NCBI RefSeq assembly: GCF_026151205.1
Contig: NC_087074.1
Location: 20,447,765 to 20,511,764, forward strand
Source: Bolinopsis microptera
Lineage: Eukaryota; Ctenophora; Tentaculata; Lobata; Bolinopsidae
Length of the DNA: 64,000 nucleotides
Direction of reading: 5' to 3'
The notes beneath the pieces were generated by a model. It had not been told where the DNA came from and did not search any database. It saw nothing but the letters and a program-made list of their open reading frames with translations. The translations under genes were made by a program, and so were the position numbers. This document shows positions 33,301-51,020 of the stretch, in pieces. The first letter of the stretch is position 1. Each line of letters opens with the position of its first letter.

Positions 33301-36300
33301 GGTGGGATAATGTGTATTATATTGGGGGGGGGGTGTCACGTCCGTCTATGTCCGCCTATGTCCTGTCCTTTTTGGATTCTATGAGACAACGGACGTGTTT
33401 TTTGGGACATTGGCGGACACGGACGGACATTGGCGGACTCGGACGGACATTGGCGGACACGGACGGACATTGGCGGACTCGGACGGACATTGGCGGACTC
33501 GGACGGACATTTGCGGACCCGGACGGACATTGGCGGACTCGGACGGACATTGGTGGACATTAGCGGACATTGGTGGACATTAGCGGACAAACATTTTGAG
33601 AATTTTTCGCAACTTCTATGTATTATAATTTTGTACAAAACAAACGACTTATTAATCACACTAAAGCTATCAATAGTTTTAACTTACCTTACGAGACATA
33701 TTTATATGGTACGAAATTTGGGGATTTTTGGAAAAAATCCCCATATTTTCGTACTACCAAAATTGTGGCCGCCATTTCAAAATCCCACACATTAATTTTT
33801 TATGTTATTGTAATTGGCTTATATAGGGCTAATTTGAGGTGAATTTGTAAAATAAGTTGTTTTACGAGTTTTGTGAGACAAGGATACGCATTTCTCAGGT
33901 AAATAAAAAGTTACTTAGTATAAAAATTACTGAATAGAAAATACTGGTTTTTTGACTTAATCGACAAGCTCAAACTCGTGTTGAGGGAGGCATACACCTG
34001 GGACTACACCGGTGAGCAGACTCAAGGTGAAAGAGACGATGATGAAGACGATTTAAACAAAGAGAATGATTTTTAATTAATTTAGTTTTTCACGATTTTT
34101 AAAAATTCCATCAAAAACTGATTTTGATTTCTCTGAAATAATTTAGCGTGAAAATGCGACAATTTAATCTGGGGTACGAAATTTGGGGATTTCTGAAAAA
34201 AATCCCCATATTTTCGTTCCCCCATAATTCCGATCCCCAGAATTATGATCCACATAAATATGTCTTGTAAGGTATTATATCAAATTATATAGGGACCCAG
34301 GAAAAGGCCCCAGGAGGAGGACTGGGGAGGAGGAGGACTGTTGAGGACTGATGAGGAGGACTGAGGACGAGGAGGAGGAGTAGGAGGAGGACTGAGGAGG
34401 GGAGGAGGAAGAGGACTGGGGAGGATCAGGAAGACCCAGGAGGAGGACCCAGGAGGAGGAGGAGGACTCAGGAGGAGGACTCAGGAGGACTGAGAAGGAG
34501 GAAGACTGAAGAGTACTGAAGAGTACTGAGGAGGATGGCTGAGGAGGATGGCTGAGGAGGATGGCTGAGGAGGATGGCTGAGGAGGATGGCTGAGGAGGA
34601 TGGCTGAGGAGGATGACTGAGGAGGATGACTGAGAGGGAGGAGGAGGATCAGGAAGACCCAGGAGGAGGAGGAGGAGGAGGACCCAGAAGGAGGACCTAG
34701 GAGGAGGAGGAGAACTGAGGAGGATGACTCAGGAGGAGGAGGACTCAGGAGGAGGACTCAGGAGGACTGAGAAGGAGGAGGACTGAGGAGGATGGCTGAG
34801 GAGGATGGCTGAGGAGGATGACTGAGAGGGAGGAGGAGGAGGAAGAGGAGGACCCAGGAGGAGGAGGACCCAGGAGGAGGAGGACCCAGGAGGAGGACCC
34901 AGGAAAAAGCCCCAGGAGGAGGAGGAGGACTGGGGAGGAGGAGGACTGTTGAGGACTGATGAGGAGAACTGAGGAGTAGGAGGAGGACTGAGGAGGGGAG
35001 GAGGAAGAGGACTGGGGAGGATCAGGAAGACCCAGGAGGAGGACCCAGGAGGAGGAGGACCCAGGAGGACCCAGGAGGAGGAGGAGGACTGAGGAGGACT
35101 GAGGAGGAGGACTGACGATGACTGAGAAGGAGGAGGACTGAGGAGTACTGAGGAGGATGGCTGAGGAGGATGGCTGAGGAGGATGGCTGAGGAGGATGAC
35201 TGAGAGGGAGGAGGAGGAGGACTCAGGAGGAGGACTCAGGAGGAAGAGGAGGACTCAGGAGGAGGACTTAGGAGAAATGAGAAGGAGGACTGAGGAGAAC
35301 TGAGGAGGAGGAGGAGGAGGACTGAATAGGAGGAGGAGAAGGAGGGGACTGGGAGAGGACTGAGGAGGAGGAGGACTGATGAGAAGGATGAGGAGGAGGA
35401 CTGAGGAGGAGGACTGAGGACCGAGGAGGAAGAGGAGGAGGATGAAGAGGAGGAGGATGACCCAGGAGGAGGAGGACTGAGGAGGAGGACTGAGGAGGAC
35501 TGAGGAGGATGGCTGAGGAGGATGACTGAGAGGGAAGAGGAGGAGGACTCAGGAGGAGGAGGAGGAGGACTGAGGAAGACTGAGAAGGAGGAGGACTGAG
35601 GAGGAGGAAGAGGACTGAATAGGAGGAGGAGGAGGGGGACTGGGGGAGGACTGAGGAGGATGGAGGACTGAGGAGAAGGATGAGGAGGAGGACTGAGGAG
35701 GACTGAGGACTGAGGAGGAAGAGGAGGAGGAGGAGGACCCAGGAGGAGGACCCAGGAGGAGGACTCAGGAGGAGGAGGAGGACTGGGGAGGAGGAGGACT
35801 GTTGAGGACTGATGAGGAGGACTGAGGACGAGGAGGAGGAGTAGGAGGAGGACTGAGGAGGGGAGGAGGAAGAGGACTGAGGAAGATCAGGAAGACCCAG
35901 GAGGAGGAGGAGGAAGAGTAGGAGGAGGAAGCATCTAAATGTTATTTCCATTTTTGTCTGTTTTTGTCCGTTTTTGTCCGCTCTATTTTTTGTCCGTTTT
36001 GAAAATATAGGGTACCGGACAAAAAACATGATCCCCATATTACAGCAAAAATTGAACATTTTATTTAGCAATTTAGGTGTCCATTAATGTCCGCTAATGT
36101 CCGTATATGTCCGTCTATGTCCGCCTATGTCCGTCTATGTCCGCCTATGTCCGCCTATGTCCGCCTATGTCCTGTCCTTTTTGGATTCTATGAGACAAGC
36201 GGACATAGACGGACGTGACACCCCCCCCCCCCCCCTATATTGTATATTATACTGATTTAAGGAATTTCTTCTCTGGATTTGACTCAGTGAGAAACAATGT

Positions 36301-39300
36301 TAGAATGAAATGCAAACGGAATTTTATTAACATATTCCAGGAAGACACCCGGCCATATCCATGATCTGTGTCTGGAAACTGTGAACAGTAAACACTACAA
36401 ACTACCTCAACACTGCTCTCGCTCAACACTAACGTGGTCACCACCCTGACAGTGCAGTAGTAACCCTCAGTATATCCATCTTTAGGAGGCACAAACATTG
36501 TCAACCGTAGATTGCAGAGGATTTATCTAGAAAAATAAACATTCTATATTAAATTGAATGATAGACAAGAATTAAATGAACTGCAGCAGTTCTTGTTTTA
36601 AATTATTTGAAATTCCTCAGATTTGCCGCTTCTTCAGTTATTTTGTCAGTACAGATTACTTATTTATAAGACTAAACACTAATCACTGCTGTGATTAACT
36701 GTTGATCTACTTTATAAAATCCTGTGGGCTGTGTATACAGTACAGTTTTTGGGAATATGGTTGGGTTCTCACATGATTGTAATATGATTAATTATAACAG
36801 TATATTTATTCTATATCTTTTTAAAAGCCTTGATAAAAACTATGTCGAAATTTCCAACGGTTTTCAATAACAATTTTGCTATTTTTAGTGTGTAGTCAGT
36901 GTAGCTTACGTTGCAATTATCGAGCTCTCTTATCTTTTGTAAATTGCGATAAGTTCAGTTTGCTGCTACTGCGTAGTTAGCCTTTGCGTGTGTACTTGTA
37001 CATTCCTATACAAGTACATTATGGAGGATGATCGTAAGGTGACCCAATCTCTGGACCAAATTCAAGGATTCGAGTATGATGAACAGACAAAATTGAAGGA
37101 CAGTGTTACTAAGTGGTTCATTACGCTGGGAAAAGAACTGAAAATCGACGACAGAGATATTTGTGGAGATATGGACAGAGAAATATTTATGGCTCCAACT
37201 GTCTATAAAAAGCATCTGGCACTTCGGCTTGTGGAAGCAATAGACCTCGTTCAACGGCATGAATGCCAGATGGGTAAAATGGAGGAGATCATATATTTCT
37301 TGAAGACGGAAGCGTTAGAAGACAAGGATAAGTTGATCAGGCTGCAGGGCCAGCTGCTTGTGCAGAAGGACAAAGAACTAGAGTTGTTTAAGACGTCGGT
37401 TAAGAAGACAGTGCAAACAACGGTGGAGTCAGGGATAAAGAGCTACAGTGCAGCTGTACAACAGAACAGTGCAAGTGGTACGGTCTGCAACAGTAACATC
37501 CTGAAGAAGGTGATGAAGAGTGTGGCTGCAGAGGAGGACAGGAGCAAGAACCTGATCGTGTTTGGGTTGAAAGAAGAAGAGGGAGAACAGCTTCCAGCGC
37601 TAGTAACCGCAGTTCTGGAGGAGATTGGGGAGAAACCTCACTTCGAAGCGACTAGAGTCGGCAGGAAGAGGCCAGGTAGTACGACTATCCGACCAGTAAA
37701 GATCACTGTCCCAAGCTCTACAGCGGTTCAACAGATTCTGACGAAAACAGGAAGACTGAGGCTAGTTGAGACCCACAAAAATGTATGGATCTGTCCAGAT
37801 AGATCTAGCGAAGAACGAGCAACGAGGAAACATCTGGTTACGGACCTGAAGAAGAAGAGGGTTGAACAGACTCATCTCGACCACTATATCCGGTACGGGA
37901 AAGTCTGTAGCCGTGATAAGAAACCACCGTGAAGCAATTCATGTCTCTCGGACACTGATCAGTATTTGAATGAGTATTGTGTATCTTAATAGTTCTCGGA
38001 CGTTATCTGTATTTGAGAGACAATTTTATAATTTATATACAAGCTATTTCTTGATTGTTTCACACTTCATATTTCATAATTTGTTTCACACTTCATATTT
38101 CATAATTTTATTACTAGGTGGAGGTGACGTTATTGAGACTTTGGGCGGCCATAAACCTCGTGTTTTAAAAGTTGTCCTCTGAACTTGTTTCACTGACCCA
38201 CGCTTTATAGCATTTATACATTTCGGCCCATTTTATATGTTTGTTCGATTTGCTGTACATTTGTATATTTGCTATTTTGTAAAAGTTTCAAATCAAATCA
38301 AATCATGTCATTGTGTCTGAAAGGTACCACGTGACTGAAAGGTACCACGTGATCCATTGGTGATGTTTTTTAAACATAACATGTAGTGAAAGTGAAAATA
38401 AAAGTGAAAGCGAAAATGAAAACAAGAGTGAAAGAGTCCTACCTTGTTGGTGCCGATGTTAACGCAGCGTCTGAGAATGCAGGATTGTCTCTTAAGGTTG
38501 GGTCCCCCGAAACACCTCATATCCAGACAGAACTTGCACGTTCCACAATTCTTACTAGTGCACTGTTCACACTTCCCACACCTCCTGTTTTTCTTCTTCA
38601 CCTCACCTGGAAGATGTTAAGTTAGTAGTGTCTAGACTCTTATCTAGTCGAGGATCACTCTCAAACCTGCAATTAATTTAATAGCTCAACATATAAGAGA
38701 AATATAGTATATTTAATTACATTAAATATATACTTGTAATTAATAACTAAAACTAACAGGAGGGAGACTTTCTCTTCTTCTTCTTTTTCTTCTTGGTAAC
38801 AGAGTCAGGTACCTCCTCCTCCTCCTCCTCGTCATCATCTAACTCAAATGTCTTCAGATAGGAGTTCATAATACTCGGCTTTAGTTTCCGTCTCTTTCTC
38901 TGCGAGGCATGATTAATGAACATCACGTTCATTGGATTTAGGTTATGATTACCAGTATCAGTCACAATTTTACCTTTCTTGATATATTGGGGATACGACT
39001 AACAAAAACAAAAACTAGTAAATTAACTGAAAACATACTAAGCAAAAGATAATTAAACTTACGGGGGTATCAGGAGACGTGATCTCGGTAGAACTAGCAG
39101 AGGAAGATAACATCTTATCAGGGCTGAGGTCTGAGAAGTCACTCTTTATATCTATATCTTCATGGGACCTGTCTTTTTCTTCCGCACAATCTGATAATAA
39201 CAAAAAGTTAAGTGAACTTACTGATAGTGGACATTAAAAGCAGGATTATTAGTCTACCCCTCCCCCCCCCCCCCCCCCGGCCCCCCCCCCCCTATTATTA

Positions 39301-41449: not shown

Positions 41450-42836
41450 TCATGCGCAACGTTGAGCTGCGATCTGCATCATCTTATGTGCACAGTTGTG
41501 TGTTGATTTTAACGATTTTCGGTGATGGCTACGTTCTCCAAACTTATATTTTCTGCAATTCTCGAAATCTAGTAACTTAATGTTCAGCATAGTTGGTTCT
41601 TCTTCTCCGTAGCATAGTTGGTTAGTACGCACTCAACGTACTTTTAAAGCACCACGCACTTAACGTACTTTTAAAGCAAAATTGCGAACTTTTCGTTGCC
41701 TAAAATAGTGTAATTCATAATTCTTTAAATAGCAACATTTGTTTCCATAAGTGACTGGCAGTTTAATACTACACAGCGCTAGTGTGCCTAGTAATATTAG
41801 TAGTAGTACTGTTATTACTTTATATATATGTAGAAAGCCCGTGGTCACAGGAAAGAAGAAAATAGCATTCTTTGATAGTAAGTTTTTATCGTATCAAAAA
41901 ATATTCATCACAACAGAAGATATAGCCGATAATTGTATATAAAACACCGGAAAACACTCCACACAACGTAATTACGAAAATACCGATCAAAATGTCGCTC
42001 GAAAAAGCCATTATAAGTAAAAACTGGCTGGAGAGCTGGTGGAGGTTCGTAGTCCCCAGTAGCCCGGTTCATAAAACAAAAATATTATCCAATAATTGCG
42101 GTTATATGCTTATCTGTTGAATGACTCCTCAGAACGGGCACTTGTCAAGACTTAACTCACATATGACGAGAAACGCTGAGTCCTTCCAGGAACTAGTCCA
42201 AGCGGTCGAATCTCACCGGAAGAGATACGGACTAGAAACAAAGGACGATCTTAAGAAGCTTTATTAGATTTTATGTGTAAATGTTGTTTGATATTGATTT
42301 TATTTTATTCTTAAACATAAACTGTCGTATTCAATCTATTAGCAAACCAAATATATGAACCGGGCTAGTCCCCAGTATAGCAAACCTAAGTAGTTGTTTT
42401 CATGCCAGCTTTTTGGAAAGAGGGGAGCACTTGGCCGAAGCCCCCGGAAAATGTCGCTAGATAATGGCTTTCTAGAAGCTCGGAGAGCATTATACAATGT
42501 GAAATTTGACCGTATTTCCATAATATGTTCTAGATTGTCCTTACGCTATTTTTTTATGAATTTAATTCAGAAAAGTGCTCTCAAGGGCCGGCAGGGAGCA
42601 GTGCCCCCTGCCTGTCCCAAAAGGAAGATCACGTTCCCCGGCCCCACTGGGCCAGTGCTTCCCCTGGCTACGGGCATGGTTGTTTTCGTATATTATCACA
42701 TCTTATTAATAAACTGCATTTATTTGATAGTTATGATAGTCGGATCGAGCAAAATTTTGTTGAATTGTGTTTGGCCATTCGAATAACGTTTGTCCTGAAA
42801 AATATTAGAACGTAGCTTCTCAGATGACCGAGATAT
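41450..42836. other. repeat-derived region without a supported gene
   Basis: 41830-42000 is the second copy of the dispersed AGAAAGCCCGTGG repeat. 42716-42836 matches the mariner-like fragment at 29811-29920. A GCACTTAACGTACTTTTAAA block is duplicated near 41630 and 41655. The mariner-like sequence resumes at 46613, on the other side of the G-capped element. Confidence 0.5.
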
Positions 42837-43231
42837 GATTTGCCGGGGGGGGGGGGGCCAATGACTACCAATGGAGACTTTTGGGGACTAATGGGGACTA
42901 AAAATCATGGGGACTAGAGGTCAACTCGTTGACGTAATTCACCATTTGTCCCCATAAGTCCCCAGAATTTTTGACAGTTATTTATGGTTTTCAAGTTAGT
43001 TTAATAACGATACGATCGAGATGTTTTGTCCAAGATAAGAGTAGGATAAATCTGACTTAAAAGTAAAATGATAAGCCCGGTTGTAATGTGTTCTACCACT
43101 GTACAAGTCAGTTCAGATTGAGGTAAATTGAAGTTTAGCTCTCGTGAAGGTAGAAGTAGCCGACTCGCTGAACTCTTGAATCTTTTGACCCATCAGCATG
43201 GACATTATCGGGGAAAAGGGTATAGGACACA

Positions 43232-46068
43232 AGGGCGGAAGACGCGTGGGCGGAGGTCGCGTAGGACGCAAGGGCGGAAGTTTCCTAAAAGGTTGGACAC
43301 GAGGGCGGAGGTCGCGAGGGCGGAGGTCGATCCCATGATTTGGGCGGAAGACTCGTAAAACGATCACATGTCCTAAATGCTCGACTGGTAATACTACAAA
43401 ACCGGAAACATCACACAACGTACTTCAAATTGTATAAATTTTATAAGTTATATTCAATCAAAGTTATATTCAATCATTTTAGTGGTACTGATTTCGAATT
43501 CTTTGTAACTTTACAAACAAAATACACAGGGTTATACTTATAGAGAACGCTTAACGGTAATATAAATCACAATGTAATCAATCAATTTTGTCAAACCCGA
43601 ATAGAATAATATCACAATAACATAAACATTTCACATAGCACAACATCATCCTCGTACGAATGGTAGTTCTGAACTATGCTGAAGATTCTTCTATCCTTGT
43701 CGCTATTGGCCTTCCTCCTCTTAGGCTGCTGCTCTCCAAGCGAATTCGCTAAGGTCTTCTTGTCTGTCGAGGACTGTTCCATCTGGACTAGGAGATTCTG
43801 ACGTTGTGACTCAAGTTGTTCGTTTCACTGTGCAATCTTTTCGTGTGAAAACTGTTGATCATATCCCAGAAGCCCTTGTGTCATGTGACTCAAACTATCG
43901 AATCGAGTCACGTGATACATAACTTCGACTCACGTCATGAATCACCATGGTCATGATCTCATATAACACAACGGTATGTGAGGACATCACAACATCACGA
44001 GCGATCTGGGATCTGATCTGGCATCTGTAAACTGATCTGGGATATGATCAACTGTTTTCACACGAAGAGATTGCACAGTGAAACGAACAACTTGAGTCAC
44101 AACGTAGACGACTCGAGAGACAACTAGTATATTTAAGACCGATGTTGGGAATAGAAGTATCTTATTATTTAGTTCCAGCTACATCTCAACTACTACAATA
44201 ACAACCATGTACGATGAAGATACAGTAAAGATTATCAGAGGAAGGACTCCTACCAGTCAGAATCTCCTACACGGTGGTTTCCGCTACTCTAAGGATGGAA
44301 AGCTTACCACCGATGGACGCCAAGCCTGGAGATGTGTGAGGAAGAAAGACTGTTGCCGTGGTCGTCTGTATACCCTGAACGAATCCTTGGTGAAAGTGAA
44401 GTGACACAGATACATAACCACGACGCTGATATCGCTGACTGTGAATTGAAAGAAGTCCTCGCTAAAGTCCAGGATCTGGCTGCTACGACGATGACTACTA
44501 ACCACAACATCGTTTGCTCCGTTACTGGTCCCATGTCTCAGGATGCACGTGCCCGCCTCCCCAACGAACAAGCGGTGAAGAAGAGGGCACAGAGAGCCCG
44601 CTGATACGGAAACCCTAGACCTAGAGCGCCTACATCCCTCGCAACTGGAAGAGGACGACTGCAGATCCCTCTCCGGTGAACCTATGCTTCAATACGACAA
44701 CAACCTGGACGATCGACGTGTCATCATCTTCGCAACAAAAAACAACCTGACAGCCCTAGAGCAGAGCAGCAGCTGGTATATCGACGCAACCTTCTCATCC
44801 TCACCGCAGCTGTTCTATCAGTTACTGACTGTCCACGCGGAGATGGTGAACTTCACGGAGGATTCAACCTGGTGCTTCCCTTGCGTCTACATTCTCCTGA
44901 CCCACAAGGACACTCCCATCTACATGGAAGCGTTCGGCGCCCTCAAAAACCTTGGTTCCTTTTCTCCAGACCGAATCATGGTGGACTTTGAGCTCGCCCT
45001 GAGGAACGCCCTATCGTCTACATTCGAGTCAGCCCAAGTGGATGGGTGCTTCTTTCATATCTGCCAGGCTGTCATGAGAGCTGTCGGGAGGCTTGGATAC
45101 AAGGAGGAGTATGAAAAAGTCCTGACAGATCCCTCATCTGGCCAGAAGAACTACACCCCTACACGAATCTGGATACGGAGACTGATGCTCCTAGCCTTCA
45201 TCCCCACCGAGGACGTCATCGAAGCGTTTTTCAGAATCCTGGATGATATACCGATAGGCCTCGACATTGACGATCTCCTGGCATACTTCCAGACCACTTG
45301 GATCCAGGGACTAACGACTGCCTCCGGCACCGGACGAGCTAAATTCCCTCCGTCCACGTAGAATGCCTATGAACGCAGCCACTTCAACATGAACCGGACA
45401 AACAACGTGGTGGAGTCCTGGAACAAGAAGTTCTCTGCTCTAGTCGGACACGCAAACCCGACCATCTACAATTTCATTGCAGCAGTCCAGATGGAACAGT
45501 CCTCGACAGACAAGAAGATCTTAGCGAATTCGCTTGGAGAGCAGCCGCCTAAGAGGAAGAAGGCCAACAGCGACAAGGATAGAAGAATCCTCAGCATAGT
45601 TCAGAACTACCATTCGTACGAGGATGATGTTTTAACCTATATTGATTTGCTAAAGAGTGCTATGTGAAATGTTTATGTTATTGCATGATATTATTCTATT
45701 CGGGTTTTGACAAAATTGATTGATTACATTGTGATTTATATTACCTTTAAGCGTTCTCTATAACCCTGTGTATTTTGTTTTTAAAGTTACAAAGAATTCG
45801 AAATCAGTACCACTAAAATGATTGAATATAACTTATATAATTTATACAATTTGAAGTACGTTGTGTGATGTTTCAGGTTTTGTAGTATTACCAGTCGAGC
45901 ATTTAGGACATGTGATCGTTTTACGAGACTTCCGCCCAAATCATGGGATCGACCTCCGCCCTCGCGACCTCCGCCCTCGTGTCCAACCTTTTAGGAAACT
46001 TCCGCCCTTGCGTCCTCCGCCCTCAAGTCTTCCGCCTACGCGACCTCCGCCCACGCGTCTTCCGCCCT
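43232..46068 (+). mobile_element. MULE with arms of about 580 bp that include transposase coding sequence
   Basis: 43232-43790 is an inverted copy of 45486-46068. The outer part is GC-rich repeats of GCGGAGGTCGCG/GGGCGGAAG type. The inner part of the left arm is an inverted copy of the 3' end of the transposase frame. A second inverted pair, 43802-43869 and 44037-44104 (68 bp, two mismatches), follows. A related GC-rich end occurs alone at 51650-51690. Confidence 0.75.
44207..45667 (+). pseudogene. FLYWCH/MULE transposase, degenerate
   Basis: The N-terminal part (44207-44404) has a FLYWCH-like zinc finger (GFRYSKDGK, WRC, CCRGRL), with HNH continuing in another frame. The 44684-45361 part carries the catalytic region: WYIDATF (first Asp), DRIMVDFELAL (second Asp), GCFFHICQAV (C..H), and after a stop NNVVESWN (Glu). 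At least two frameshifts (near 44398 and before 44684) and an in-frame TAG (45359-45361) disable it. Confidence 0.8.
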
Positions 46069-46612
46069 CCTGACTGGTTCCCCGGGGAAAATGATGATCG
46101 ATTAGAATCTTACAGTTACTCCTCCTTGCACGATGCACAGGTCTCTAGAGTAACGGTACTGCACCACCTGACAGGGCTTTCCAATATCCATTATTCATTC
46201 AAAAGTAATAAGAAAAATTGATAATGTGTTTATTTTCCTTGCGCTACAACTCGTGTTACTAGATCAATCTGATAAAATAAGCGTATTATATATGCAATAT
46301 GTCTCCTCAATGTTGTCATTGGTAGTCGCCCCCGCCCCCTCCCTTAATTTACCTGAGGTACTCTAACAGCCCTCAAGTAGCTCCCAAGAAGTCAGGAATG
46401 TCCAGTGACCATTTATAAATATTCTAGACTTCAGTCTTGAGAAGTTTACGATCTGGTCTGGAGAAGCCAGATTTTTTGAAATCTAAATGGGGACTAATGG
46501 AGACTTTTGGGGACTAATGGGGACTAAAAATCATGGGGACTCGGGGTAAAATCGTTGACGTAATTCCCCAAGTCCCCAAAAGTAGTCATTGGCCCCCCCC
46601 CCCCGATTTGCC

Positions 46613-46862
46613 TCATGTTTTCAGATCATATGCAACATGTAATAATCTACCGTCTCTGAAAATATTAGGCGTTCAGAGAAAACAATATAGGTGTTTTAAT
46701 ATTGAATGGGCGTGGTCTAAAATATTCCATCAAATTTTGATGACGGAATCCTCGAACCATTTAGTACAGTATGCCATCTGCAAAGCAACAGCTCTCAAAT
46801 ATAAAACACGGCGGAATTATTAAGGCCAACGTATGTCCACTGACTTTTGGCCCACCCTGTAT
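46613..46862. mobile_element. mariner-like right end
   Basis: The segment runs from the target duplication of the G-capped element to the complement of TACAGGGTGGGCCAAAAGTC. Its last 185 bp match 29119-29305. Confidence 0.6.
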
Positions 46863-47051
46863 CAAATCGAAATTTATTTGACAAATTTGGTTTTTCTTTT
46901 TCAAATCAATTTTAAAACGACATGGCGGGTTTGAGCCATAAAATTCCAATTCAATTTCAATATTAAAATAGAAAACGATTTGACATCAGTTTTTTTATCA
47001 ATTTTAAAACGATGGCGGGTCTGAGCCACCATACCCCTCTTATTTCATAAT

Positions 47052-48845
47052 ATGTTATGTCATCGCAGTGAAATGTTGACGAGAATCGAGTTTACCAAAC
47101 CGCTCAAAATACTCCTGATGTCTACCAAACACAACGCGCTCAGTCAGCGAATTGCACTGGAACTCCAACGGAAAAACTGCAACATCAAAATCCAGGAAGT
47201 TCAAACAGGAGAATGCATGATATCCGCTGAGCAGAGAGAAAATCCCGATCTGATTATCTGTCCCTTCCTGAAGACGAGGATCCCCAGGGAGCTATGGAGT
47301 AGGAAGCCCTGCTTGATCCTGCATCCGGGAATAGAGGGGGACCGTGGAGCCACGTCTCTGGACTGGGCTATCAAAGACAAGAGGGCTGAGTGGGGTGCCA
47401 CCGTCTTACAGGCTGATGATCAGTTTGATCATGGTCCCATTTGGAGTACGGGAAACTTTCCCATGAACCGTCCTGACCAGAATACCCTGACTAAAGCGAT
47501 TGTATACGGGCACGAAGTTACGGACACAGCCGCTCATTGCATGACCCAAGCCATAGAGCACTTCACCAACAACACCCCTCCTCGCACCCTGGACTACAGC
47601 AGAGCGGAAGTGCAGGGTGAACTTGTACGCAACATGCGACGACAGGACCGTGTCATCAATTGGAACGAGGATCAGGAGAGTGTGGCTCTGCGTGTAAGAA
47701 TGTCTGACTCCTCTCCGGGCGCCATTGCCAGCTTTCAACTGACTAGTTACCATGGTAACACAGCTTGTGATAGCCAGCCGTTCTGGAGTGAATTGTTCCG
47801 GGCCTTCGGGGCACATCTGGAGACGGGGGATCTGAGGAACCTAAAGGGAGAGCCGGGCCAAATCTTAGGACAGCGTGATAACGCCATCCTGGTAAAATGT
47901 GGCAAGGGAGCCTTGTGGCTCTCGCATTTGAAATGTGACTTAATTAAGCTCCCTGCTATGACTTGGATTAGAAGAAAAAACCCCCACTGTGACCACATCC
48001 CAGTCCTGGGAGAGAACATACTTACAGACAGTCGGGCACCACTTCCCTATGTGCCGTACGGTCAGACCCCAGCAACATTCCAGGAAATTTGGGTTACCAT
48101 GACAGCAGACGGAGTGTTCTTTGTTAACTTTAACTTCTACAACGGCGCCATGACCACTTACCAGGCCAAGAATTTGGAGTCAATTCTACGACGAGTTGAA
48201 GAGAGTGGTCTTTGCAAAGTTATCGTTCTTAGGGGTGGGTACAACTTCTTCAGTAACGGAATAAACCTGAACACGATTGAGAGCTCGTCCGATCCAGTAA
48301 GTGAGTCGTGGAGTAACATAAACGCTATTAACGACGTAGTGCGCCGTATCGCAACCAGCAGCAAGGTGACAATCTCAGCTCTGCAAGGTAACGCTGGAGC
48401 GGGGGGTTTCATGATGTCACTTGCGAGTGACATGGTGGTGGCACGACAGGGGGTCATACTGAACCCCCATTACCGGCGCATGCATCTCACTGGATCAGAG
48501 TACCACACCTACTTCCTGGCTGAGCGGTTGGGTGAGGCGGAGGCGAGTCAACTGTTGGACACAGCAGAGCCTGTGCTAGCGGAGACAGCAGTGGATACAG
48601 GGCTAGTGGACCAGGTGATGGGGTATGGTGTGGTGCAGTTTCAGGAGCAGGTGGAGGACCTGGCGAGAAGGATGGCCCGGTACGGTACAGTTCCACGGGT
48701 TACTTTGAGGAGGGAAGAGCGGAAGAAGGTACAGGACTTTCCTCAGTTACTGGAGCGGCGAAGGGCCATGGAGCTGGAAGCCATGGCAAGGGACTTTAGA
48801 GGGGCCTCGTACGCGGAGGCTCGCCGAGCTTTTGTTCTTCATTAG
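47052..48845 (+). CDS. HypX/HoxX-type formyltransferase-enoyl-CoA hydratase protein
   Basis: This is 597 residues, intronless and undamaged, visibly GC-richer than its flanks. Residues about 17-180 are a formyltransferase-type domain (KILLMSTKHNALSQR, IICPFLKTRIP, H91PG..GDRG, SLDWAI), and about 210-330 its C-terminal subdomain. From about 345 on it is an enoyl-CoA hydratase/crotonase domain, with NAGAGG (447-452) in the oxyanion-hole position and NPHYRR..GSEYHTY (E483, Y484, Y487). This domain order and the GSEYxTY block are the signature of bacterial HypX, which makes CO from formyl-tetrahydrofolate via formyl-CoA for [NiFe]-hydrogenase maturation in air. Bacterial proteins have about 550-580 residues. 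A second ATG lies at 47073. Its role in an animal is unknown; a one-carbon or formyl-CoA function is a guess. Confidence 0.85.
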   Translation: MLCHRSEMLTRIEFTKPLKILLMSTKHNALSQRIALELQRKNCNIKIQEVQTGECMISAEQRENPDLIICPFLKTRIPRELWSRKPCLILHPGIEGDRGATSLDWAIKDKRAEWGATVLQADDQFDHGPIWSTGNFPMNRPDQNTLTKAIVYGHEVTDTAAHCMTQAIEHFTNNTPPRTLDYSRAEVQGELVRNMRRQDRVINWNEDQESVALRVRMSDSSPGAIASFQLTSYHGNTACDSQPFWSELFRAFGAHLETGDLRNLKGEPGQILGQRDNAILVKCGKGALWLSHLKCDLIKLPAMTWIRRKNPHCDHIPVLGENILTDSRAPLPYVPYGQTPATFQEIWVTMTADGVFFVNFNFYNGAMTTYQAKNLESILRRVEESGLCKVIVLRGGYNFFSNGINLNTIESSSDPVSESWSNINAINDVVRRIATSSKVTISALQGNAGAGGFMMSLASDMVVARQGVILNPHYRRMHLTGSEYHTYFLAERLGEAEASQLLDTAEPVLAETAVDTGLVDQVMGYGVVQFQEQVEDLARRMARYGTVPRVTLRREERKKVQDFPQLLERRRAMELEAMARDFRGASYAEARRAFVLH

Positions 48846-48907
48846 ATTTAGTGTGAGTTACTTGTGCAGGCACTACCCAAGAAGCTCGACCAGCGGAATT
48901 CCATGCA

Positions 48908-49576
48908 AGTTTATGGTTATGTTTATGGTTATGTTTATGGTTATGTTTATGGTTATGTTTATGGTTATGTTTATGGTTATGTTTATGGTTATGTTTATGG
49001 TTATGTTTATGGTTATGTTTATGGTTATGTTTATGGTTATGTTTATGGTTATGTTTATGGTTATGTTTATGGTTATGTTTATGGTTATGTTTATGGTTAT
49101 GTTTATGGTTATGTTTATGGTTATGTTTATGGTTATGTTTATGGTTATGTTTATGGTTATGTTTATGGTTATGTTTATGGTTATGTTTATGGTTATGTTT
49201 ATGGTTATGTTTATGGTTATGTTTATGGTTATGTTTATGTTTATGTTTATGGTTATGTTTATGGTTATGTTTATGGTTATGTTTATGGTTATGTTTATGG
49301 TTATGTTTATGGTTATGTTTATGTTTATGTTTATGGTTATGTTTATGGTTATGTTTATGGTTATGTTTATGGTTATGTTTATGGTTATGTTTATGGTTAT
49401 GTTTATGGTTATGTTTATGGTTATGTTTATGGTTATGTTTATGGTTATGTTTATGGTTATGTTTATGGTTATGTTTATGGTTATGTTTATGGTTATGTTT
49501 ATGGTTATGTTTATGGTTATGTTTATGGTTATGTTTATGGTTATGTTTATGGTTATGTTTATGGTTATGTTTATGG
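48908..49576. repeat. 12-bp minisatellite TTTATGGTTATG
   Basis: About 55 nearly perfect copies begin some 60 bp after the HypX stop. Two places (about 49236 and 49320) have TTTATG substitutions. Because 12 is a multiple of three and the unit lacks stops in several frames, long VYGY, MVMF and TINI frames appear; they are not genes. Confidence 0.95.
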
Positions 49577-50172
49577 TAAGAATTATCGCGGATTGCGGAA
49601 TACCTATGGTCGGGTGCTTGGATACTGCCTTGATAAATTCAATATGTTTTTTCACTTTTGAGAATTATTTATAAATTAAAACAATTCGAAAATTTTATTT
49701 TATTTCAAACTTGGTATTAACTACTAGTAAACATCTTGATTCCCCATTTCTCAATCGATTATTTTATCATTATCAATAAGTGCTGGGCGTGAGAAGAAAG
49801 TGGCCCGCACCACTTTCCTAGTGATGGCCCTCGACCGTTAATCACTGGTCCAGTCAATGGCTTAAGAATACCAAAATATCAAAAAATCGAAATATTAAAT
49901 ACTACTATTCGAGAATGAGTCACTCTTATAATTCAGAGTTTTCCCCTGCGATCGCCCATACGTGCAAACTGCAAATTCAGGGTTGCTTTTGTTTACTGTG
50001 CGAGTACTAAGCAAATGCGGGAGCATTTTAATTTGCTGTTAGTTGCCAAATATTTAGCATTCACGTGTACGCATTGTCTGAAATTTGGAATTTACATCGT
50101 TGTAAGTACGGTAATTTAATGCACAAATGCACGTTTGTCATGCAAAGATGACGGCTTTATTGGCACGACATT
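49577..50172. other. gene-free spacer
   Basis: AT-rich sequence with no recognised gene or repeat. Confidence 0.4.
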
Positions 50173-50481
50173 ATGATGGTTTATATTGTCATTGCGTTGT
50201 GTTCAGTGTGTTTTACACTATCACCGGTTTTGTCTCAGGCTGGGATTGATAATTTAAAGTTAGAAGGACGTGCTACCTGTGGTCCTCATTACACGAGGTT
50301 GTCTATAACTGTCACCAGGGAGGTGTTACTAGGTGTTACTAGGGAGGTGTTACTAGGTGTTACTAGGAAGGTGTTACTAGGTGTTACCAGGGAGTTAGAA
50401 GAACGTGCTACCTGTGGTCCTCATTGCACGAGGTTGTCTATAACTGTCACCTGTTGTATTATCGGTGATTTGGCGGAGTGA
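50173..50481 (+). CDS. small secreted protein or first exon of an extracellular gene
   Basis: The frame starts with a convincing signal peptide (MMVYIVIALCSVCFTLSP) and continues EGRATCGPHYTRLSITVT, which faintly resembles the start of a ZP-N domain. A 54-bp segment with GTGCTACCTGTGGTCCTCAT is duplicated (about 50267 and 50405), and between the copies lie 24-bp AGGTGTTACTAGGGAGGTGT units. The duplication suggests local expansion of an exon; the stop may not be the natural end. Confidence 0.4.
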   Translation: MMVYIVIALCSVCFTLSPVLSQAGIDNLKLEGRATCGPHYTRLSITVTREVLLGVTREVLLGVTRKVLLGVTRELEERATCGPHCTRLSITVTCCIIGDLAE

Positions 50482-50634
50482 ACATTGCCAATGCCACCCA
50501 ATTAGCCGCTCAGCTTATTTAATACAAATAGTGAAATTCTTTAACTACATTTTGAATAGCATTTAAATGCAGATAACTATTGCTCCACCGATAGTCCCTA
50601 CTACTCTTTATATTAAAGTGTCAATGTATAGTGT

Positions 50635-51020
50635 ATAAACAATGTATAGTGTATAAACCATGTCAGCTTGTACAATGTATAGTGTATAAACCATGTCAGC
50701 TTGTACAATGTATAGTGTATAAACCATGTCAGCTTGTACAATGTATAGTGTATAAACCATGTCAGCTTGTACAATGTATAGTGTATAAACCATGTCAGCT
50801 TGTACAATGTATAGTGTATAAACCATGTCAGCTTGTACAATGTATAGTGTATAAACCATGTCAGCTTGTACAATGTATAGTGTATAAACCATGTCAGCTT
50901 GTACAATGTATAGTGTATAAACCATGTCAGCTTGTACAATGTATAGTGTATAAACCATGTCAGCTTGTACAATGTATAGTGTATAAACCATGTCAGCTTG
51001 TACAATGTATAGTGTATAAA
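50635..51020. repeat. 33-bp minisatellite
   Basis: About eleven near-perfect units contain AATGTATAGTGTATAAACCA and GTCAGCTTGTAC. The 33-bp length keeps three frames open, creating false repeat proteins on both strands. Confidence 0.95.

Follow-up and report, generated by a model that had tools for sequence, protein, structure and literature searches.

An intact, duplicated HypX-family gene in an animal nuclear genome

The window, by which we mean the whole 64,000-nucleotide stretch analysed here, contains an open reading frame on the + strand at 47052..48845 that extends for 597 codons, from ATG to TAG, with 0 internal stops. An earlier note, made from the letters alone, had described an intact single-frame HypX-type gene at this position, and one uninterrupted frame was indeed found there. 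The gene and the features around it are as follows.

47052..48845, + strand: HypX-family coding sequence, 597 codons plus stop; alternative start Met8 at 47073
47211..47450, + strand: Formyl_trans_N, formyl transferase N-terminal domain (Pfam, residues 54-133, above cut-off)
47322..47342, + strand: codons H91 to D97, equivalent to Aquifex His74 and Asp80, putative formyl-transfer site (alignment; available parts of PMC6802093)
47427..47429, + strand: codon D126, equivalent to Aquifex Asp109, putative formyl-transfer site (alignment; same source)
47634..47936, + strand: Formyl_trans_C, formyl transferase C-terminal domain (Pfam, residues 195-295, above cut-off)
48147..48797, + strand: ECH_1, enoyl-CoA hydratase/isomerase (crotonase) domain (Pfam, residues 366-582, above cut-off)
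48471..48500, + strand: codons Y474 to E483, equivalent to Aquifex Tyr416 and Glu426, putative decarbonylation site (alignment; same source)
41670..50520, no strand assigned: block duplicated on contig C10, in matching pieces 41670-42006, 42034-42061, 42366-42838, 46665-48929, 49557-50313 and 50393-50520
42846..46604, + strand: probable MULE-type DNA transposon 5' of HypX, in the window copy only (inverted ends and a transposase match)
48909..49577, + strand: 12-bp tandem array of 55.8 units with 99% match, where the C10 copy has about two

The three Pfam domains lie in one chain in the order Formyl_trans_N, Formyl_trans_C, ECH_1, as in HypX. In a phmmer comparison with PDB sequences, the top match was Aquifex aeolicus HypX (E 9e-95, query residues 17-595), while the best non-HypX match was a crotonase (E 8.3e-11). 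The 25 matching NCBIfam families listed, of 72, were all in the crotonase half and far under their cut-offs. The three-part order and the full-length Aquifex match confirmed the proposed HypX identity, and the window gene is almost certainly a nuclear member of the HypX family. Bacterial HypX aligns from about residue 18, which leaves about 17 extra N-terminal residues in the window protein, so Met8 (47073) may be the true start. An acceptor-like string, TCATCGCAG, was read by eye 5' of Met8 and ends at 47068.

The genome searched (G000) comprises 264.65 Mb in 232 contigs. The best PDB match of a glutamate-receptor ORF in this genome was the iGluR ML032222a (E 1.2e-61), and 4zdm, which we take to be a glutamate receptor from the ctenophore Pleurobrachia, also scored high. 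Names beginning with ML are Mnemiopsis leidyi gene names, according to usage in the available parts of PMC6005172. The closeness of this ORF to a ctenophore receptor supports the animal host assumed from the start, and the host is probably the ctenophore Bolinopsis microptera. Nematostella was set aside as host because the TRPM exons retrieved match the Nematostella TRPM2 chain at no more than 64%, except for a single 16-residue piece at 87.5%.

A HypX search of this genome returned two matches, the window copy on contig C3 (21.28 Mb) and a second copy at C10:5396372-5398147 on the - strand; C10 (18.27 Mb) is likewise of chromosome size. The C10 copy is 98% identical to the window copy and has no stops. 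The non-coding 5' and 3' flanks were duplicated along with the gene, in pieces collinear with the C10 locus at 90-97% identity, apart from one 28-bp piece at 100%, and flank pieces were also found at window 29.1-30.0 kb. Since both flanks are common to the two copies and no poly-A junction was seen by eye, the duplication was at the DNA level. Retroposition, one of two histories that the earlier note had offered for the gene, is thereby ruled out for the second copy. In a search bearing on transposon cargo, no convincing terminal inverted repeats were found at the ends of the duplicated block.

The probable MULE has inverted end matches (42846-42887 versus 46565-46604; 42 columns, 86%), and ORF 44579-45361 within it matches a MULE transposase (E 2.5e-11). 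A second tandem array occupies window 50639-51020 (33 bp x 11.6, 100% match). Both arrays lie no more than 2.2 kb from the stop codon of HypX, and the 12-bp array is expanded in the window copy only. Ten window ORFs were scanned; five had Pfam matches, mostly to transposon or PHD domains, and none of the ten matched a hyp family. Elsewhere in the window, positions 34000-36000 are strongly skewed (two 1-kb windows with GC skews of 0.53 and 0.67 and AT skews of 0.36 and 0.48) and resemble a purine-rich simple repeat. A frame at 38308-38616 on the - strand has CxxCxxC-type repeats by eye and resembles a CXXC zinc finger exon.

The second copy, on another chromosome-size contig and with duplicated flanks, argues strongly for a nuclear animal gene and not a bacterial contig misjoined at this point, a concern that had been raised for this locus and that the flank pieces recurring in the window also answer. 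HypX is integrated in the animal nucleus with animal flanks. Bacterial contamination or misassembly would fit a bacterial-type, intronless gene whose GC exceeds that of eight host ORFs, but is extremely improbable given two chromosome-size contigs, duplicated non-coding flanks, a probable MULE beside one copy and the recurring flank pieces. The CpG ratio of the HypX copies (0.67-0.69) is likewise near that of the window (0.71). If the assembly is the one described in PMC10232365, the available parts of that paper add that bacterial scaffolds were removed and that Hi-C curation was done. COX1 gave no match in G000, while 8 of 14 control genomes were positive; we read this as the absence of a mitochondrial contig from G000. 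Searches for the STING and GFP families likewise gave no match, but with none of the 14 controls positive they are uninformative.

To characterize selection since duplication, the two copies were compared over 590 aligned codons. They show 32 differences, 17 synonymous and 15 non-synonymous, over 402.3 synonymous and 1367.7 non-synonymous sites (binomial p = 1.8e-4). The NG86 estimates were dN 0.0107 and dS 0.0448, for a dN/dS of about 0.24. The two coding indels, of 7 and 2 codons, both keep the frame, while the 3' flank has seven indels (20, 10, 2, 2, 5, 1 and 2 bp) and the 5' flank has one (3 bp). Flank divergence is 1.8% on the 5' side (7/384) and 3.6% on the 3' side (26/716), and dN is below both. 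These comparisons indicate that both HypX copies are held by purifying selection since duplication; the selection that had been read from the open frame is borne out by the synonymous excess and the frame-keeping indels. A gene intact only through recent arrival or duplication, and functionless, is very unlikely. The 5' flank divergence of only 1.8% does suggest a short time since duplication, but the low dN/dS with its p value, the frame-keeping coding indels and the retention of catalytic residues at about 31-41% identity to bacteria all argue against a dying gene.

A predicted model of the window protein, built from 14 sequences, had a mean pLDDT of 74.3 and a pTM of 0.78. A Foldseek search with the model placed HypX entries at all of ranks 1-8, with TM scores of 0.81-0.82 (query) and 0.86-0.89 (target), and the model thus indicates that the overall HypX fold is kept. 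The pLDDT is below 50 at residues 399-411 and 476-481, and the latter stretch falls between the two putative decarbonylation residues. In Aquifex HypX, according to the available parts of PMC6802093, the proposed formyl-transfer residues are His74, Asp80 and Asp109 and the proposed decarbonylation residues Tyr416 and Glu426; the reaction steps themselves are also marked there as proposed. The window equivalents are H91, D97, D126, Y474 and E483. Both ctenophore copies carry all five residues, so the conservation of formyltransferase and crotonase key blocks noticed earlier holds for the pair. Among 42 other HypX rows (41 extracted sequences plus Aquifex, with L014 and L068 incomplete), equivalents of His74, Asp80 and Asp109 were present in 42/42 and those of Tyr416 and Glu426 in 40/42, the two remaining rows being gapped there. 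These putative catalytic residues are retained despite an identity to bacterial HypX of only about 31-41%.

The CoA contacts are less uniform. The comparison covered R9, Q15, R131, S194, Q195 and N306 in Aquifex numbering, R542 lying beyond the Aquifex stretch used. Gln15, Ser194 and Asn306 are kept in the window protein, while Arg9 is changed to K, Arg131 to G and Gln195 to S. Positions R9 and Q195 vary widely across the other rows, R131, S194 and N306 vary in some, and Gln15 does not vary; glycine at the Arg131 position occurs in 0 of the 42. An insert near residues 229-240 is absent from six aligned bacterial rows and is unlike between the two ctenophore copies.

Partners of a [NiFe]-hydrogenase were then sought in the host genome. 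Exon-by-exon searches of G000, which can miss split genes, gave 0 matches for HypD (PF01924; 4 of 14 control genomes positive) and 0 for the [NiFe]-hydrogenase large subunit (PF00374; 5 of 14 positive, four over cut-off). CO supply to [NiFe]-hydrogenase cannot be the role of HypX here, unless a hydrogenase was missed, and another job for the ctenophore protein is probable because the hydrogenase partners were not found in G000.

Bacterial relatives were collected for comparison. Of 398 genomes around the Malaciobacter genome G001, 89 gave a HypX match (E 1e-20), as did 81 of 398 around genome G118 (E 1e-60), the two sets overlapping, and the closest bacterial identity to the ctenophore protein was 43% in the genome search and 41% in alignment A1. 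HypD was checked in 50 of the 89 HypX genomes in one scan and in nine in another, and 49 of the 50 had it. It was also found in 10 of the 13 genomes behind the first loci, and in 0 of 3 plasmid records, where the plasmid sequence alone was searched. The counts of 49/50 and 10/13 indicate that HypX goes with hydrogenase maturation in these genomes. HypX also matched 68 plasmid records. Among the annotated records examined, those with hypX by hyp or hydrogenase genes were from Rhizobium T1470, C. necator, Kitasatospora, Bradyrhizobium, Mesorhizobium, Sulfurimonas, Acidovorax and R. leguminosarum. In PLSDB gene tables, which are incomplete, no hyp or hydrogenase genes were annotated near hypX in Mycetohabitans, Acaryochloris or two Nocardia plasmids (L017 10001-11755, L018 8001-9734, L020 7995-9668 and L062 6016-7716), and records from Nonomuraea, two Embleya, Variovorax and Streptantibioticus carry no annotation around hypX. 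Some of the bacterial loci with no annotated hydrogenase neighbour are close to genes of acyl-carrier or redox enzymes. Roles of HypX apart from hydrogenase may thus exist in bacteria as well.

The hypX of G118 (L069:204-1901) is at the edge of its contig, and inspection by eye of the next 10 kb revealed no recognisable hyp gene. The HypD of G118 is on a different contig from its hypX. This hypX may still serve a hydrogenase, since HypD is present elsewhere in the genome and hypX is at the contig edge. G118 sits among Malaciobacter relatives with a HypX outside the Campylobacterota clade, which represents either a foreign HypX or a binning error. Two scans of viral_contigs gave no close viral relatives, and in the phages collection the one match, a partial one, was to an unverified contig from faeces. 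That contig, L068 7027-8136 (MT837797.1), was deposited as a faecal phage, ends in a HypX-like frame and is probably bacterial DNA.

A tree was built from 42 proteins and 576 columns under LG+C20 PMSF, with prokaryote rows plus the two ctenophore copies and an arbitrary root. The incomplete rows L014 and L068 were left out, and stops in L011 (1), L013 (2), L055 (2), L061 (1) and L067 (1), taken as upstream of the true start, were set to X. Sampling is uneven, with many Campylobacterota and with plasmids elsewhere, and 23 rows have unusual letter make-up. The ctenophore copies joined G118 (97/95) and then Acaryochloris (93/86), outside a 22-row clade (100/99) of named Campylobacterota rows and nine further genomes. 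Within the visible stretch, neither of these two nearest rows has hyp genes next to hypX. The stem leading to the ctenophore copies is long, at 1.57 changes per column. In AU tests of groups chosen after tree inspection, placement with the 22-row Campylobacterota-type clade was disfavoured by the tree and not rejected (p 0.069), and placement with four actinobacterial rows was not rejected either (p 0.116). Sister relationships to seven proteobacterial rows (p 0.00014), to Mycetohabitans alone (p 0.032) and to Acaryochloris without G118 (p 0.016) were rejected or disfavoured. This phylogeny of prokaryote rows and the two ctenophore copies groups the latter with G118, while two other placements are not rejected by the AU test.

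The intronless state and the GC content of the gene had also been taken to fit horizontal transfer or retroposition. Intronlessness is a weak sign, since long open frames are ordinary in G000: 24 of 32 iGluR matches were in open frames of 316-989 aa, and three TRPM-like matches were in frames of 414, 847 and 1386 aa. Many glutamate-receptor and TRPM-like genes of this ctenophore have long intronless frames, for example at C9:7533364, C8:6755619 and C11:5324936. The available parts of PMC6005172 describe nine horizontal transfers in Mnemiopsis leidyi, eight of them with introns and one without. GC retains some force. The HypX ORF is 52.3% GC versus 39.8% for the window, and its total GC of 0.52 is above that of all eight compared host ORFs (0.39-0.47), a small, hand-picked set chosen for open frames. 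Third-position GC of the HypX copies (0.59-0.60) is just over the host ORF range (0.35-0.57). Codon-use correlation to the host pool was 0.69-0.70 for HypX, 0.69 for the Acaryochloris gene and 0.77-0.94 for the eight host ORFs, whose values are inflated because each ORF is itself part of the pool. GC and codon use, as read from the sequence, fit a foreign origin of HypX. Bacterial promoter and terminator signals numbered 4 and 2, versus means of 3.1 and 2.6 in shuffles.

Together, these data suggest that a bacterial-type HypX became fixed in a ctenophore nuclear genome and was then duplicated to a second chromosome. We infer that the origin was very probably horizontal, directly or through another eukaryote. 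Transfer, as proposed from the start, is the likeliest history, although the tree holds bacterial rows only and the placement within it is not firm. Some eukaryotic records are annotated as HypX/HoxX-like. The family could be older or wider in eukaryotes, with the ctenophore gene either derived from another eukaryote or inherited vertically and lost elsewhere, and the bacterial grouping a product of sampling. The stem of 1.57 and the distance to the closest bacterial relatives (43% and 41%) are in keeping with such a history, which we consider unlikely; every relative found was from a prokaryote genome or a plasmid, save one from a contig labelled as phage, in searches of such collections only.

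What the protein does can be approached through bacterial HypX, which in the available parts of PMC12134894 is shown in vitro to make CO from 10-formyl-THF through formyl-CoA. By analogy, the N-terminal half of the ctenophore protein would take the formyl group from 10-formyl-tetrahydrofolate and pass it to bound CoA; the crotonase half would act on the resulting formyl-CoA, most likely decarbonylating it to CO. Since the fold and all five residues are retained, these two steps are the simplest chemistry to assume. Retention of formyl transfer to CoA is likely from the conserved residues, and CO could well be the physiological product, although on this we lean slightly to the negative. In bacteria the CO goes to iron on HypCD, a consumer not found in this genome; either CO would act elsewhere or the second step would be changed. 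The product would then serve something besides [NiFe]-hydrogenase, with CO as a haem-independent signal or ligand; alternatively, a formyl-CoA or folate-balance reaction could be the use.

A protein that kept formyl transfer or hydrolysis and lost CO release would be a 10-formyl-THF deformylase, or a formyl-CoA maker feeding folate or acyl-CoA metabolism. The changed CoA contacts, the insert near 229-240 that differs between the copies, the want of a hydrogenase partner to take CO and the weak match of the N-terminal half to 10-formyl-THF dehydrogenase hydrolase domains all speak for it. However, the Tyr/Glu pair is kept in both copies and would be unneeded for a pure N-domain role, and we regard this possibility as rather unlikely. 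The explanation that we prefer, with somewhat more confidence than doubt, is a transferred bacterial-type HypX that was duplicated, with both copies selected in a hydrogenase-free role. More tentatively, an early-branching animal lineage may use a captured bacterial enzyme, decoupled from hydrogenase, to make haem-independent CO from 10-formyl-tetrahydrofolate via formyl-CoA, the CO serving in signalling or as a ligand of metals.

In animals, haem oxygenase is regarded as the main source of CO. A selected, duplicated ctenophore HypX would add a second enzymatic source, supplied by one-carbon metabolism, in a lineage that branches near the root of the animals. Retention of HypX without hydrogenase, as suggested here, would also make the annotation "hydrogenase maturation protein" potentially misleading. 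Multigenerational rearing of B. microptera has been achieved, according to the available parts of PMC10232365. No report of an animal HypX was found in the titles and abstract openings of the HypX/HoxX and ctenophore-transfer papers listed, a body of text that mostly excludes subscription papers, and the HypX tree legend in the available parts of PMC2974642 names bacteria only.

The locus places a familiar protein family in new surroundings: an intact, selected HypX in an animal nucleus, where its usual partner system was not found. In three-part architecture, fold and putative catalytic residues, the ctenophore protein resembles HypX/HoxX of aerobic [NiFe]-hydrogenase systems (Aquifex aeolicus 6J0P; Cupriavidus necator pHG1). 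It differs from the Aquifex and C. necator proteins in its N-terminal extension of about 17 residues and in the insert near 229-240. The C. necator gene comes after hypA, B, F, C, D and E, whereas the ctenophore gene is on an animal chromosome in a genome where neither HypD nor the [NiFe] large subunit was found. Full-length bacterial HypX genes with no visible hyp neighbours (Acaryochloris marina pREC3, Mycetohabitans rhizoxinica pBRH01, the Nocardia plasmids and G118) are similar in this respect; unlike the ctenophore gene, those of G118 and the plasmids are bacterial, the plasmid hosts being judged from the plasmids alone. As a foreign enzyme gene settled in a ctenophore nuclear genome, HypX resembles the Mnemiopsis leidyi transfers reported in the available parts of PMC6005172, although 0 of the 9 transfers in Table 3 of that paper are HypX-like.
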